Shown here: in pieces, positions 372 through 5,679 of the stretch | Layout of the letters: every line of letters begins with the position of its first letter | Numbering within the stretch: position 1 is the stretch's first letter | Source of the DNA: a bacterium | GTDB lineage: Bacteria; AUK180 | Length of the DNA stretch: 5,920 nt | Reading direction: 5' to 3' | Assembly (NCBI GenBank): GCA_030622125.1 | Contig: JAUXGM010000137.1 | Location: 1-5,920, forward strand | Translations under genes and position numbers: made by a program | Notes under the pieces: model-generated | Seen by the model: the letters and a program-made list of their open reading frames with translations, nothing else | What the model was told of the DNA's origin: nothing | Databases searched by the model: none

Positions 372-376
372 AATTA

Positions 377-382
377 CCTCCT
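377..382 (-). promoter_or_regulatory. Ribosome binding site AGGAGG for the secreted-protein gene
   Basis: A perfect AGGAGG lies five bases (TAATT) upstream of the ATG at 371 on the minus strand. It fixes the start of a gene that is otherwise incomplete at the window edge. Confidence 0.85.
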
Positions 383-418
383 ATGATAATTTGTTTTTTA
401 AAAGAGCACTATTTATAA

Positions 419-435
419 TGCTTCAAGCGTGCCAA
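419..435 (-). promoter_or_regulatory. Sigma-54 (RpoN) promoter for the secreted-protein gene
   Basis: On the minus strand the sequence reads TTGGCACGCTTGAAGCA. It has the invariant GG (433-432) and GC (421-420) separated by exactly 10 bases, and a full TTGGCACG block at -24, which is the best-conserved part of the sigma-54 consensus. The -12 block is AAGCA rather than TTGCA, a partial match. The predicted transcription start is near 408. This gives a leader of about 37 bases ending in the AGGAGG at 377-382, which is normal geometry. No convincing sigma-70 promoter competes on this strand. Sigma-54 promoters need an AAA+ activator; one with an intact GAFTGA loop is encoded at 3648-5012. The match to consensus is seen; that this activator controls it is inference. 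Confidence 0.72.
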
Positions 436-502
436 AGATAAAAACCAATGTAATTCCCGATATATTGTGTAATATCAAAATTACAAGAGAGGGTATTTAA
501 AT

Positions 503-512
503 TAACATGTTA
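503..512. promoter_or_regulatory. Palindrome TAACATGTTA, possible activator binding site
   Basis: A perfect 10-bp inverted repeat is centred about 100 bp upstream of the predicted sigma-54 start near 408, in the usual range for an enhancer-binding protein site. It is also about 20 bp upstream of the plus-strand -35 box, so a bound protein could affect both divergent genes. It is a single copy in very AT-rich DNA, so chance is a real alternative. A second, weaker inverted repeat (GATAT...ATATC, 459-476) lies between it and the promoter. Confidence 0.35.
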
Positions 513-530
513 CTTTTATGAAACAAAAAC

Positions 531-561
531 TTGACAATTTTTAAAAAAGTGTTAATATAAA
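531..561 (+). promoter_or_regulatory. Sigma-70-type promoter for the plus-strand sensor/kinase genes
   Basis: A perfect TTGACA -35 box (531-536) is followed by TAATAT (553-558, spacer 16) or TATAAA (556-561, spacer 19). With the first choice, transcription would start near 565, only about three bases before the ATG at 568. No Shine-Dalgarno sequence fits in that space, so the 68-codon frame would be read from a nearly leaderless mRNA, or not at all. The kinase at 767 has its own ribosome binding site and would have a leader of about 200 bases. Confidence 0.6.
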
Positions 562-567
562 GTTAAG

Positions 568-774
568 ATGAATAACAAAAAAAAATTATCCTTTACCGTA
601 CTATTTTTATTATTTTATCAGATTATGTGTTGTCAAAATAAAACAGTACGGGTAGGCATATATCAAAATCCACCAAAGATATATTGGGATAAAAATGGAA
701 AACCTAAGAGACTTTGGGTTGATATTATAAAAATAATTACTGCCAATAAGCCTTTAGGAGTAATTTATGGATAA
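568..774 (+). pseudogene. Truncated periplasmic binding-protein-type sensor domain (remnant, 68 codons)
   Basis: Residues 1-22 form a signal peptide: NNKKK, a hydrophobic core, and Cys21-Cys22 at the end. The cysteines are a poor lipobox because Met precedes them. Residues 26-57 match the start of family 3 solute-binding or BvgS-like sensor domains: VRVGIYQNPPKIYWDKNGKP followed by an LWVDIIKII helix. In that family the domain continues for roughly 200 more residues; here it stops after a non-matching tail (NKPLGVIYG). I found no continuation of the domain in the other plus-strand frames around 740-790, so most of it appears to be deleted rather than frameshifted. The frame overlaps the hybrid kinase gene by 8 bp, and that kinase has its own membrane anchor. 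Likely a relic of an older sensor gene; a functional secreted mini-peptide is possible but unsupported. No Shine-Dalgarno precedes its ATG. Confidence 0.6.
756..760 (+). promoter_or_regulatory. Ribosome binding site AGGAG deciding the hybrid kinase start
   Basis: AGGAG lies six bases before ATG 767 and inside the end of the upstream 68-codon frame. An in-frame TAA at 761-763 excludes any longer kinase start. The kinase is therefore a separate protein and not a continuation of the upstream sensor fragment. Confidence 0.8.
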
Positions 775-2884
775 AAAACGAAAACTGTTGTTTATCGGTG
801 TAATAATATGCCTTTTTGCCTGGGTAATTTCCGGCATTTATTCTTATTATTCTTTTTATGATGGTCAATATGAGGATATTATAATCGCGGATAGCATACT
901 TAAAATGATTTACTTGAGAATATTATTTACAATTATTGTTTATGTATTTGGAGTGATTCTTTCTAATGAATATGGAAAGCGGAAACAATCAGAAACGGAA
1001 CTTGAAACAGAAAAAATTTTTTTACAAACGATTTTTGATAATTCTTCAATAGGAATTTGTGTCGTTGATAAAAAAGGAAGCTTTATAAAAACAAATAACT
1101 TTTTTTGTGATCTGACGGAATATTCAGAAGATGAAATGAAGCAAATAAATCTTTTTGATATTATCTATAAAGAGGATGTGAAAGAAACGAAAGATGCCTT
1201 TACAAAAGTAATAACTGAAGCAGAAAAAAATATTTCAATTGAAGAAAGAAGTATAACAAAATATGGAAAAATAATTTATATCTCTGAAAAATTTTCCTTG
1301 ATTAAAATTGATAAAAAAAATAAATTAATTTTAGTTGTATTTGAAGATATTACAAATAGAAAAAAAATGGAGATAAAACTTGAAGAGAGTGAATACAAGT
1401 ATAGATCAATTGTAGAAAACATAGATAATGCAGTAATAATTATTCAACACTATAAATTGATCTATTGGAACAAGATTTTTTTATCTCTTACGAAATATAC
1501 TAAGAATGAAATAAAAAAAATGAAGATATATGACTTTATATATAAAGAGGATATTAATCGTTTTAAAAAATATTTAGAATTATTGGAAAAGGATAAAGCA
1601 CCTCCGAATATCTTTAATCTCAAATTAAAGACCAAAAGCAATAAATTGAGAAATATAGAAATACATACTACAGAAATTATATCCAATGATATGAGACAGT
1701 TTATTCTGGTCTTGTGGGATAGAACCGAACTAATAAAAAAAGAAAAGATACGTTTGGAACATTATAAATTAAAAGATATAGCTACATTGGTCGCCGGGAT
1801 TGCTCATGATTTTAATAATTTTTTAACAAGTATCGCCCTTAATATTCATCTTGCAATTGATGAACTTGAAAAAAATCCGAAAGGAAGTATCGCTCATCTG
1901 AAAAAAGCGTACAAGGTTACGGGCAATGCCGGTAAATTAACGCAACACCTTCTTACTTTTGCAAAAGGAGGCGAACCTATCTTGAAAAGTTTGGATACTG
2001 TTGATCTTTTTAAAACCAATGTCAAATTTTTCCTTGCAGGTTCAAAAATTAAGGTAAAATTTCACTTTTCAAAGGATACCGGTAATGTTTTTGGAGATGG
2101 AGCACAGTTAGAACAAGTAATTCAAAATCTTGCTGTAGATAGTAAAGAAGCTATCGGAAAAACTAAAAATGGAACTATTACAATAACAGTCGGTAATGAA
2201 AACTTACCCGAAGCTAATATCTATTTTTTAAAAGAAGGTAATTATGTTAAAATTATATATAAGGATACCGGACCCGGAATAAAAAAAGAAAATTTATCTA
2301 AGGTTTTTTCACCTTATTTTACTACAAAAAAAACAGGCACCGGTCTTGGACTCTCCATTGTTTACTCTATCATTCAAAAACATAATGGTTATATTGGCAT
2401 TGAGTCCGAATATGGTAAGGGTGTAATGTTCACAATATATCTTCCGGCTACCGTAAAAATATCTAAACCTAAAAGAAAAACGACTGCTATTTCTGCAAAA
2501 GATCTGACGGGAACTTCCATTCTTTTGATGGACGATGAAAAATTTATTAGAGATTCGGGAAAACTAATATTGGAAAATTTCGGCTTCAATGTTAAAACGG
2601 TAAAAAAAGGAGAGGAAGCCATTGAAAAATATAAAAACGCATTGGATAAAGGTAAACCTTTTAAATTAGTTATACTTGATATGACTATTATTGATGGGAT
2701 GGGAGGGAAGGAAACCTTTCATAAATTACGGGAAATCGATTCAGAGGTCAAGATCATCTTAATGAGCGGCTATTCTAAGGAGCAACTTCCTGAAAATCTA
2801 AAAGATAATGGGTATTATGAGTTTGTAAAAAAACCTTTTGATGTAAATGAATTTATTCAAAAGGTTAAAACTGTCTTGCAGTAG
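767..2884 (+). CDS. Membrane hybrid histidine kinase (2 TM, PAS-PAS, HisKA, HATPase, REC)
   Basis: A 705-residue inner-membrane sensor kinase that should autophosphorylate on His and pass phosphate to its own receiver. Seen: TM1 at about 7-29, a short periplasmic loop of about 20 residues, TM2 at about 48-66, then a short charged linker. PAS1 is at about 84-197 and PAS2 at about 207-322, each ending in the typical EDIT/WDRT motif. The HisKA H-box is AHDFNN with His347. In the HATPase domain the N-box is at 450-463, the G1 box DTGPGI at 500-505, the F-box near 514-521 and the G2 box TGTGLGL at 523-529. The C-terminal receiver (about 582-705) has Asp589/590, phospho-acceptor Asp638, Ser667 and Lys689. 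Odd: the N-box reads NLAVDSKEA, so the second Asn, which binds Mg-ATP in this family, is Asp458. The small periplasmic loop suggests sensing by PAS or membrane rather than a periplasmic ligand. There is no HPt domain and no cognate regulator on the same strand, so the output is unknown. It overlaps the upstream sensor remnant by 8 bp and converges on tdk. Confidence 0.93.
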   Translation: MDKKRKLLFIGVIICLFAWVISGIYSYYSFYDGQYEDIIIADSILKMIYLRILFTIIVYVFGVILSNEYGKRKQSETELETEKIFLQTIFDNSSIGICVVDKKGSFIKTNNFFCDLTEYSEDEMKQINLFDIIYKEDVKETKDAFTKVITEAEKNISIEERSITKYGKIIYISEKFSLIKIDKKNKLILVVFEDITNRKKMEIKLEESEYKYRSIVENIDNAVIIIQHYKLIYWNKIFLSLTKYTKNEIKKMKIYDFIYKEDINRFKKYLELLEKDKAPPNIFNLKLKTKSNKLRNIEIHTTEIISNDMRQFILVLWDRTELIKKEKIRLEHYKLKDIATLVAGIAHDFNNFLTSIALNIHLAIDELEKNPKGSIAHLKKAYKVTGNAGKLTQHLLTFAKGGEPILKSLDTVDLFKTNVKFFLAGSKIKVKFHFSKDTGNVFGDGAQLEQVIQNLAVDSKEAIGKTKNGTITITVGNENLPEANIYFLKEGNYVKIIYKDTGPGIKKENLSKVFSPYFTTKKTGTGLGLSIVYSIIQKHNGYIGIESEYGKGVMFTIYLPATVKISKPKRKTTAISAKDLTGTSILLMDDEKFIRDSGKLILENFGFNVKTVKKGEEAIEKYKNALDKGKPFKLVILDMTIIDGMGGKETFHKLREIDSEVKIILMSGYSKEQLPENLKDNGYYEFVKKPFDVNEFIQKVKTVLQ

Positions 2885-3084: not shown

Positions 3085-3648
3085 TTATTTTTCCCCACCA
3101 TTAAAACAATTTCTGCATCTCGCTTCGTAAAGTTTATTTGCACCAACCAGTATCTGCTGATCATTTTCAACTATTCTCTGTGTTTTTGTTGCAGGATTTC
3201 CACATTTCATACATATTGCTTGTGTTTTCATAACATCATCTGCAATGGCAAGAAGCTGCGGCATTGGACCAAATGGCTTACCAAGATAATCCTGATCAAG
3301 TCCCGCTATAATTATTCTTATGTTTTTATCGGCAAGTTCCTGAACAATATCAATTATTCCATCATCAAAAAATTGTGCCTCATCAATACCGATGACCTCC
3401 GTATTATCTTCAAGATGATTCATAATTTGTGAAGAATCTTTTATATTGATAGCCTTTATTTTCTGAGCAGAGTGAGAAACAACATACGCTTCATCATATC
3501 TATTATCAATCTCAGGTTTAAAGATCAACACCTTTTTTTTTGCGATTTGTGCGCGCCTTAACCGTCTTATCAATTCTTCCGATTTACCCGAGAACATACA
3601 TCCGGCAATGGCTTCGATCCAACCCAAACCGTTTGGTATAAAATTCAT
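3085..3648 (-). CDS. tdk: Thymidine kinase, type II (TK1-like)
   Basis: Transfers phosphate from ATP to thymidine to give dTMP in the pyrimidine salvage pathway, in the cytoplasm. The 187 residues are full length for bacterial Tdk. Seen: a P-loop at 16-23 (GCMFSGKS), then EELIRRLRRAQIA; KPEIDNRY at 44-51; and the Walker B/catalytic segment IDEAQFF at 88-94 with Glu90 as the likely general base. LDQDYLGKPFGPMP at 117-130 follows. A four-cysteine structural zinc site uses Cys146, Cys149, Cys178 and Cys181. The thymidine-binding lasso between them ends in LYEARC, with Tyr174. Only the P-loop residue Cys17, where Pro or Ser is usual, stands out. The start ATG shares one base with the regulator's stop (TAATG), and its AGGAGG lies within the regulator's last codons, so translation is coupled. 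It is the last gene of the string and is followed by the convergent hairpin. A run of nine A residues in codons 36-39 is a possible slippage site. Confidence 0.96.
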   Translation of the reverse strand: MNFIPNGLGWIEAIAGCMFSGKSEELIRRLRRAQIAKKKVLIFKPEIDNRYDEAYVVSHSAQKIKAINIKDSSQIMNHLEDNTEVIGIDEAQFFDDGIIDIVQELADKNIRIIIAGLDQDYLGKPFGPMPQLLAIADDVMKTQAICMKCGNPATKTQRIVENDQQILVGANKLYEARCRNCFNGGEK

Positions 3649-5012
3649 TATTTTTCCTCCTTTATATTATATTCCTTTATTTTTTTAATCAGCGTAGCTC
3701 TTGAAATTCCCAAAATTTCCGCTACCTTTGTATGATTATTATTGTATCTTTTTAAATTCTCAACCATTGCAATTCTTTCTACCTCTGCCAATGACAATCC
3801 GCTTAATTCATTTAAACCTATTTTTTCTCTTGAACTCTTTTTTCTTGACTCATTATTTTTCGGAAGATCATCCACTTCTATTGTATTCTTATTATTAAAA
3901 ACTACAATATGTTCGACCGTATTCTTTAATTCTCTGACATTTCCCTGCCAACTATATTGTTTCAAAAGATCAACCGCATCCTTTGAAAACTGCATAAGCG
4001 GTTTTTTGTAATCCCGACAGAACTTGATCATATAGTAATTCAAAAGCGGATAGATATCAATAGGTCTTTGACGCAAAGGTGGAATATCTATGTTAACAAC
4101 CTTTATTCGGTAATAGAAATCTTCCCTGAATTCACCTCTGGAAATTGCCTTTTCCAGATCCTTGTTGGTTGCAAAGATCAAACGTGTGTCAATCTTTTTT
4201 ACCGTGATACCACCGATTGTCATTATCTCCTTTGTTTCAAGAAATCTTAAAAGTTTTACCTGTGTAAAAAGTGATAGATCGCCTATCTCATCTAAGAATA
4301 ATGTTCCACCCTCGGCAAGTTGAAATTTACCTTTTTTAGATGCTGCTGCACCCGTAAATGCTCCTTTTTCATAACCGAAAAGTTCTGATTCCAATAATGT
4401 ATCTGGTAGAGCCGAACAATTAATAGGAATAAACGGACCATCCCTTCTCAATGAATTGTAATGAATAGATTTGGCAACCAGTTCCTTCCCGACACCTGAT
4501 TCCCCTGTTATTAAAACATTAGCATCCGTTGGTGCGATCTGTTTTACCTTTTCAAATATTGTTTCCATCTCAGATGAAACCGAAATAATATTTTCAAAAC
4601 TATGCCTATCTATTAAATTTTCTTTTAATCGCTTAACCTCTTTTTCAAGCCCTAATTTTTCATAAGCCTTTTCAATAAAAATCTCAAGTTCGTCAAGCTT
4701 AAACGGTTTCATCAGATATTGAAAAGCACCGCTTTTGATCGCTTCAATTGCAACATCTATTGAAGAAATGCCGGTAATTACAATGATCTCAATATTCTTT
4801 TTAGCACTTTTAACTATTTTAATAAGTTCAATTCCGCTCTTATCCCGTAAGTTCAGATCTGTAATAATTATCTCAAAGTTATGCTTTTTAAGAAGATTCA
4901 GGGCACCGGAAACACTATCGGTTGATTTTACAAACTCCCCTTTCATTGAAAAATAATCAAAAATGGTCTCCCTGAGTGTTGAATTATCTTCTACTATCAA
5001 TAATCTTTTCAT
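3648..5012 (-). CDS. NtrC-family sigma-54 response regulator (REC, AAA+, Fis-type HTH)
   Basis: A 454-residue cytoplasmic transcription activator that, once phosphorylated, should oligomerise and use ATP to open sigma-54 promoters. Seen: the receiver domain (about 2-115) has acidic pair Glu8/Asp9, phospho-acceptor Asp52, Thr80 and Lys102, all intact. The AAA+ domain (about 140-370) has Walker A GESGVGKE at 170-177, the sigma-54-contacting loop GAFTGA at 217-222, Walker B LFLDE at 238-242, FREDFYYR at 295-302, and the sensor II motif GNVREL at 357-362. The C-terminal Fis-type helix-turn-helix is at about 408-448 (HTKVAEILGISRATLIKKI). Nothing essential is missing, so it should be a true sigma-54 activator. 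Its start lies 29 bp inside the upstream soluble kinase gene, and a weak GGAAAG precedes the ATG; its stop overlaps the tdk start. The kinase next door is the likely phosphate donor. A sigma-54 promoter at 419-435 is a candidate target. The specific paralogue cannot be named. Confidence 0.95.
   Translation of the reverse strand: MKRLLIVEDNSTLRETIFDYFSMKGEFVKSTDSVSGALNLLKKHNFEIIITDLNLRDKSGIELIKIVKSAKKNIEIIVITGISSIDVAIEAIKSGAFQYLMKPFKLDELEIFIEKAYEKLGLEKEVKRLKENLIDRHSFENIISVSSEMETIFEKVKQIAPTDANVLITGESGVGKELVAKSIHYNSLRRDGPFIPINCSALPDTLLESELFGYEKGAFTGAAASKKGKFQLAEGGTLFLDEIGDLSLFTQVKLLRFLETKEIMTIGGITVKKIDTRLIFATNKDLEKAISRGEFREDFYYRIKVVNIDIPPLRQRPIDIYPLLNYYMIKFCRDYKKPLMQFSKDAVDLLKQYSWQGNVRELKNTVEHIVVFNNKNTIEVDDLPKNNESRKKSSREKIGLNELSGLSLAEVERIAMVENLKRYNNNHTKVAEILGISRATLIKKIKEYNIKEEK
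3656..3661 (-). promoter_or_regulatory. Ribosome binding site AGGAGG for tdk inside the regulator gene
   Basis: AGGAGG sits seven bases before the tdk ATG and is formed by the codons for the last residues of the response regulator (KEEK). With the TAATG stop/start overlap this gives efficient reinitiation, tying tdk translation to that of the regulator. Confidence 0.8.
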
Positions 5013-5679
5013 AACTTTCCAGATCTATCGGGAATGTAATAATAAATTCTGTTTGTTGATCCGAAGAATTGACCTTGATCTCACCCTTAATATCATCTAT
5101 GAATCGCTTTGAAATTGCAAGTCCGAAACCGCTGCCGCTGCTCTTTGTCGTTATCATCGGTTTAAATATCTTTTTCCGGATCTCTTTCGAGATCTCAGCT
5201 CCGAAATTAATTATTTTCACCATAATAAATTCACCGACTTTTTTTGTAGAAAAAATAATATCACCATTATTATAACTTGCTTCAATAGAATTTTTTAAAA
5301 TATTTTCCAATACCGTCGCAACTTTTAATTTGTCCTGATCTATTTTGCCGATCATGAGATCATACTCCGTTTTTATATGGAGAGATCTTTTGGCTATGAA
5401 ACCCTGAAAATCTTCGATGATATCATTAATTAGACAGTGGAAATCAAATTTTTCCATTACATTTTCTTCTCTAAAATAGAATCCTGTATCGCGAACTTCT
5501 CTATACAATTTTTCGGATTGTTGACAAAGTTTATCAACCATTTTTGTCATCTTTTCCCTGGGAATATTTTTTCTTTCAACTACTTTTTTTAATATTTGAG
5601 CATTTAAAAGGATTGTTTGCGTACTATTTTTTATCTTATGAATAAAATACTCAAATATCTCTCTGTTTTCCATTTTCAA
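4984..5679 (-). CDS. Small soluble histidine kinase without a sensor domain
   Basis: A cytoplasmic kinase of about 230 residues, partner of the adjoining NtrC-type regulator. Seen: a short DHp segment with H-box FIHKIKNST and His14 as the likely phosphorylated residue, followed by helices to about residue 70. The HATPase domain (about 75-217) has N-box LENILKNSIEA with Asn126 and Asn130, the F-box/TTK at 172-179, and G2 box SSGSGFGLAIS at 180-190. There is no transmembrane segment and no PAS, GAF or other input domain, so the signal must come through a partner protein or the DHp itself. Odd: the G1 box is NFGAEI at 158-163, where DxGxGI is usual; Asn replaces the adenine-contacting Asp, as in some kinase families. 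The start is uncertain: TTG 5679 (231 residues) has GAAG at good spacing, while ATG 5673 (229 residues) is the conventional choice. It begins 23-29 bp after the porB stop and overlaps the regulator gene by 29 bp. Confidence 0.88.
   Translation of the reverse strand: MKMENREIFEYFIHKIKNSTQTILLNAQILKKVVERKNIPREKMTKMVDKLCQQSEKLYREVRDTGFYFREENVMEKFDFHCLINDIIEDFQGFIAKRSLHIKTEYDLMIGKIDQDKLKVATVLENILKNSIEASYNNGDIIFSTKKVGEFIMVKIINFGAEISKEIRKKIFKPMITTKSSGSGFGLAISKRFIDDIKGEIKVNSSDQQTEFIITFPIDLESYEKIIDSRR

Follow-up and report, generated by a model that had tools for sequence, protein, structure and literature searches.

A gene for a small exported protein (A1) in a member of the uncultured phylum AUK180 probably belongs to a self-regulated two-component/sigma-54 regulon, which would produce exported Ig/Fn3-like beta-sandwich proteins by way of an NtrC-type activator (clade B) encoded outside the window. 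The phylum thereby gains a testable regulon with one enhancer sequence, one core promoter and one candidate activator, and this regulon covers three exported or membrane gene classes beyond the curated libraries searched.

Genomes and features of the window

The window, by which the whole stretch of DNA analysed is meant, is the entire contig C20 (5920 bp) of genome G000, a 2.08 Mb draft that is 96% complete and encodes one RpoN (contig C107, E 6.9e-52). The phylum comparison set comprised seven genomes: the five of family f1 (G000 to G004) and two of a sister family (G005 and G006). Five A1 homologues were found in four of the seven genomes (two of them in tandem in G004), and within this set the A1 family is confined to these four genomes, from three lineages. 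Ten strong sigma-54 activators were found in G000, that of the window included, and several orthologue clades spanning five genomes emerged from a tree built on the activators of G000 to G004. All features of the window are listed in Table 1.

Table 1. Positions, strands and supporting evidence for the features of the 5920 bp window.
Feature	Positions	Strand	Evidence
A1 secreted-protein gene, 5' part only, cut by contig end	1..371	minus	ORF and homologue comparison
Predicted leader, 36 nt, +1 at G407	372..407	minus	inferred from GC position at -13/-12
Shine-Dalgarno AGGAGG, perfect, 5 nt before ATG	377..382	minus	invariant in five A1 homologues
Start-of-transcript box GTGCTCTTTTA, conserved; TCTTT at about +3	399..409	minus	A1 promoter comparison
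Sigma-54 -24/-12 promoter TTGGCACGCTTGAAGCAT	418..435	minus	pattern match, conservation, shuffle tests
Box AATATATCGGGAATTA, conserved between enhancer and -24	451..466	minus	A1 promoter alignment
Enhancer-like site GTTTCATAAAAGTAACATGTTAA, ACATGT centred near -99	502..524	minus	alignment, pattern and matrix searches
Sigma-70-like promoter TTGACA-N16-TAATAT of the divergent kinase gene(s)	531..558	plus	weak: shuffles yield at least as many
Hybrid histidine kinase (two PAS, HisKA, HATPase, receiver), divergent	767..2884	plus	domain search
Sigma-54 activator, clade D (receiver, Sigma54_activat, HTH_8)	3648..5012	minus	domain search; intact
Soluble histidine kinase overlapping clade-D activator	4984..5679	minus	domain search; conserved HK-EBP cluster

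Core promoter and its conservation

Judged from its sequence, TTGGCACGCTTGAAGCAT is a sigma-54 promoter core of the enhancer-dependent kind, serving the gene of an exported protein. The GG (433-432) and the GC (421-420) stand exactly ten bases apart on the minus strand, with TGGCAC at -24. The GG-N10-GC promoter placed on this strand by the initial annotation was confirmed with exact spacing at 435-418, as was the perfect AGGAGG before the ORF (382-377; ATG at 371, minus strand), and the leader of about 37 bases given there agrees with the 36 nt predicted here. When the 2.08 Mb genome was searched with the pattern TTGGCACGNNNNNWGCAT, TTGGCACGCTTGAAGCAT was the sole match with zero mismatches. 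For TTGGCACG alone the expectation is 0.037 per shuffled window, TTGGCACGN5WGCA was obtained in none of 300 shuffles, and shuffling of the 120 bp upstream of the ATG gave a site of equal quality in 0 of 1000 cases. The -12 part of the promoter reads AAGCAT, as against TTGCAT in the consensus.

Orthologous upstream regions without the element had been named in the initial annotation as a finding that would speak against the promoter. This comparison was run, and the core was present in all five A1 homologues: TTGGCACG lies 56-68 bp upstream of the ATG in the four genomes, although the homologous proteins share only 25-34% identity with that of the window. Positions -13/-12 are GC in two promoters (G000 and G003) and GT in three (G001 and both G004 copies); the -12 element is AAGCA in the window, CAGCA in G003 and GAGTA/GGGTA in G004/G001 (consensus TTGCA).

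The secreted protein

Of the signal-peptide ORF annotated initially, the signal-peptide-like start was retained (called by eye and from conservation, with no predictor), but the ORF is incomplete: it leaves the contig at base 1-3, and what the window encodes is a partial protein of at least 123 residues. Complete homologues consist of a signal peptide, a Tyr/Gly/Asp-rich linker and one predicted Ig/Fn3-like beta-sandwich. The earlier description as an unknown secreted protein held, in that A1 gave no match in Pfam or NCBIfam. A sequence search of the PDB returned nothing credible (E 0.095), and a PHROG match (E 0.005) of one homologue was discounted.

In the AlphaFold model calculated from the five-row A1 alignment, residues 57-159 form a beta-sandwich (pLDDT about 82), residues 16-55 are a Tyr/Gly/Asp-rich stretch modelled at low confidence, and a signal helix is also present. 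The best structural matches were Fn3-like and other beta-sandwiches with Z up to 9.9, many of them tied, and Foldseek gave E no better than 1.4e-3, with none below 0.001. The model speaks for a binding or structural domain that is exported and implies no particular function; the protein may be a surface or matrix component.

No A1 gene was detected in G002, but C346 and C344, two of its contigs, each have an enhancer-like match about 25 bp or less from a contig end. The window contig ends inside the A1 gene. Repeated copies of the gene, as in G004, may lie behind contig breaks in these assemblies.

Enhancer-like dyad

The initial annotation had overlooked three features upstream of and at the transcript start, as far as these can be read from the alignment: an enhancer-like dyad, the G[CT]TCTTT sequence at the start itself and an AATATA box between the two. 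In the A1 alignment a further block of conservation begins to stand out upstream of the core, at 74-77 bp from TTGG (in G001, GTTACCCCAAGGTAACATGTAAA), and the consensus of the dyad is GTTWACC-N3-GGTAACATGTAAA. The combination ACATGT-N60-90-TTGGCAC occurs at 1, 1 and 2 sites in G000, G001 and G004, respectively, all before A1 genes, and the reversed-pattern control at 0, 0 and 1 sites; in G003, where the enhancer consensus is loose, the true site was found together with two others.

Across the seven genomes searched, all six enhancer matches with up to 2 mismatches are located on contigs carrying clade-B activators. With up to 3 mismatches, the enhancer was found on the clade-B contigs of all five family genomes (G000:C158, G001:C128, G002:C346, G003:C31 and G004:C1, each with at least one copy) and, except for the window, on no contig of another clade. 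The search pattern was drawn up after those loci had been seen, so a matrix built from the A1 enhancers alone is the fairer test; this matrix recovered the operon promoters of G000, G001, G003 and G004, the DNA scanned having been partly selected by the earlier searches.

Clade-B operon and kinases

On contig C158 of G000, genes for two small exported or membrane proteins (pair1 and pair2), a hybrid kinase and the clade-B activator follow one another on one strand, the last two overlapping by 11 bp, and the enhancer TGTTTACTAATGGTAACATATTA and the core TTGGCAAGGATGTTGT are located upstream of pair1. The order in G003, all in the same direction, is A1 gene, pair1, pair2, kinase, HD-domain protein and activator. 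The operons of G001 and G004 additionally contain an HD protein and a PilT-like T2SSE ATPase, the gene for which is a weak hint of a connection with type IV pili. A second small secreted protein, s2, adjoins the activator in G001 to G004, and its gene also has the enhancer; s2 models as a small beta-sandwich, and in a profile comparison with A1 the alignment was confined to the N-terminal signal region. The sigma-54 cores of the pair and s2 genes are weaker than that of A1 (shuffle tails 0.003 to 0.07), and some would give very short leaders; at these genes the enhancer is the stronger evidence. A sigma-54-like core before the pair genes of G003 was rejected as being at chance level (722 of 1000 shuffles; tail 0.72).

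Stand-alone receiver genes of the G004/G001 island (L092 2648; L094 1990, minus) carry a site of their own, TTGGCACGAACC[CT]CGCAAT, and no clear enhancer copy. In the sister family (L183 and L184; G005 and G006), pair1-pair2-kinase-activator operons are kept, with a sigma-54-like site and without the enhancer. The activators beside these pair homologues had been expected in clade B and were placed elsewhere by the tree; an exchange of activators in these operons is possible.

The hybrid kinase of the window is 34% identical to the C158 kinase over 704 columns and closest to it in the membrane anchor. By this resemblance to the kinase paired with the clade-B activator, it is a plausible member of the pathway, one that the initial annotation did not name. 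The ORF at 568-774 (68 aa, signal-like start, no Pfam match) ends where the kinase ORF begins. Its sequence (VRVGIYQNPPKIYW...) looks like the beginning of a periplasmic solute-binding sensor, and it may be what is left of a sensor domain since lost.

The circuit proposed here takes promoter, conservation, shared enhancer, operon and linkage from the sequences, and would add to these phosphorylation, binding and a direction of control. A histidine kinase would phosphorylate the clade-B NtrC-type activator encoded on C158, which would bind the dyad about 100 bp upstream and loop to sigma-54 RNA polymerase held at TTGGCACG-N5-AGC. On opening of the promoter by the activator, a transcript starting from about G407 would lead to a small beta-sandwich protein exported by the Sec route. 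The enhancer is also present in G000 ahead of the operon for the two small exported/membrane proteins, the kinase and the activator itself, so that self-amplification of the circuit is probable.

Transcript-start box and other sigma-54 sites

In all five A1 promoters TCTTT keeps the same distance from TTGG, standing at index 30 counted from the T that opens it, within the conserved consensus G[CT]TCTTT. Near +3 of the predicted transcript it is common to the secreted-gene and small-RNA sigma-54 promoters, but the promoters of the pair, s2 and small-heat-shock-protein genes of family f1 lack it. On the strength of its sharing by secreted-protein promoters and the promoters of a putative small RNA after another sigma-54 activator, G[CT]TCTTT might tentatively be read as an extra element of some sigma-54 promoters of the phylum that spans unrelated functions, either a lineage-specific promoter extension or a shared 5' RNA signal; this is an idea that we hold to be doubtful. 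Most of these promoters have a box of the form AATATA-N2-GGG-AATA between the enhancer and the core, and the box also occurs upstream of the small-RNA promoters.

The small-RNA locus itself was observed in five genomes (L141, L187, L070, L072 and L086), with a sigma-54 promoter, TTGGCACGGAATTTGCAA, immediately downstream of the clade-G activator gene; the G000 copy is L141 (contig C171), 1294-1110, minus strand. This promoter seems to drive a small RNA with hairpins, the large loops of which display CCCCUCCUUUC (anti-Shine-Dalgarno), and with a 3' intrinsic-terminator-like hairpin plus T-run. The fold z-score is -6.4 in G000, and no credible Rfam family was found for the putative RNA. The arrangement of clade-G activator and putative small RNA recalls LuxO-Qrr. 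In G003 (L138 13575-13620, contig C28), a near-perfect sigma-54 site, TTGGCACAGGCATTGCTT, stands before two Hsp20-like genes and a dnaK-like gene (named by eye), which suggests sigma-54 control of small heat-shock proteins in that genome.

Alternative explanations

The initial annotation had joined the promoter to the activator of the same window in a dedicated two-component system. That activator is indeed intact at 3648-5012, with receiver, Sigma54_activat and HTH_8 all found by domain search; 3.3 kb separate it from the promoter, and activators of the response-regulator type often have targets close to their own genes. That it drives the A1 promoter together with its soluble kinase is nevertheless improbable. 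Clade-D orthologues are present in all seven phylum genomes (the five of family f1 and both of the sister family), in two of which no A1 homologue was found and enhancer matches are at background level only. On the clade-D contigs of the other six genomes the enhancer was found in none (search with up to 3 mismatches); the conserved neighbours there, in family f1, are the overlapping kinase and, except in G001, thymidine kinase (tdk). Clade B is favoured because in each of the five family genomes it lies on a contig with the enhancer, which clade D does not do in the relatives. A sigma-54 activator can act from anywhere in the genome, and linkage on a contig is not binding; C158 and the window are separate contigs of G000. 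A two-component system of the kind annotated is likely involved, but the window activator is probably the wrong partner, and the clade-B activator on C158 most likely works the A1 promoter. Proximity can thus mislead: only the cross-genome comparison revealed that the A1 promoter probably works with an activator other than its neighbour.

A sigma-54-dependent promoter with the dyad at -99 bound by some other regulator, such as a different response regulator from the island, and with one of the remaining eight activators in charge, is slightly less probable again. Among the products of the island are also stand-alone receivers and several kinases, and the dyad occurs upstream of genes with a weak sigma-54 core as well; a position near -99 is, however, typical for an enhancer site, and the linked sigma-54 activator with an HTH is clade B every time. 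The least probable reading dispenses with sigma-54 and takes TTGGCACG as part of a sigma-70 promoter or as another conserved protein site. The sigma-70-like reading TTGGCA-N16-AATAGT scores 9/12, but its -10 element is found at no usable spacing in the homologues, where TTGGCACG and the G at -13 are kept; moreover, RpoN is encoded, and shuffles yield such sigma-54 sites in at most 0.6% of cases. The clade-B circuit is preferred over these readings.

Comparison with known systems

PspF has no receiver domain. The pspA gene of E. coli has a confirmed sigma-54 promoter, TTGGCACGCAAATTGTA, with GT at -13/-12 (PMC4591121); its core is the same as here, and its GT is shared with three A1 homologues. 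Unlike A1, the pspA product is not exported.

In the portion of the survey by Francke et al. (2011, PMC3162934) drawn on here, the theme of sigma-54 is control of the bacterial exterior by known pathways, and the present regulon fits this surface-component theme; that portion was not found to name A1-type protein families or the AUK180 phylum.

The closest likeness is to the PEP-CTERM regulon, in which an enhancer motif and a -24/-12 motif precede exported-protein genes under the control of PrsK and PrsR (Haft et al. 2006, PMC1569441); later work showed that an RpoN-dependent PEP-CTERM gene has a part in floc formation (PMC9850573). Both systems combine sequence-diverse exported proteins, a shared enhancer and sigma-54 motif, a histidine kinase and an NtrC-type regulator, and the PEP-CTERM regulon was likewise found by comparative logic (PMC1569441). 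Unlike PEP-CTERM proteins, the complete A1 homologues carry no sorting signal (they end in ...ISNSVTFTF and ...ISNIMRKAWTPIL) and match no NCBIfam entry; unlike PrsR, the activators of the window and of C158 score 400.9 and 306.3 bits, respectively, against a TIGR02915 cut-off of 502.6 bits. With the sorting signal absent and both activators under the PrsR cut-off, the regulon is taken to work like PEP-CTERM PrsK/PrsR without being a member. A further difference is the position of the enhancer, which here also stands before the operon that supplies the circuit's kinase and activator. The repetition of the PEP-CTERM logic without a sorting signal suggests that two-component circuits with sigma-54, dedicated to surface proteins, arose, or spread, repeatedly.
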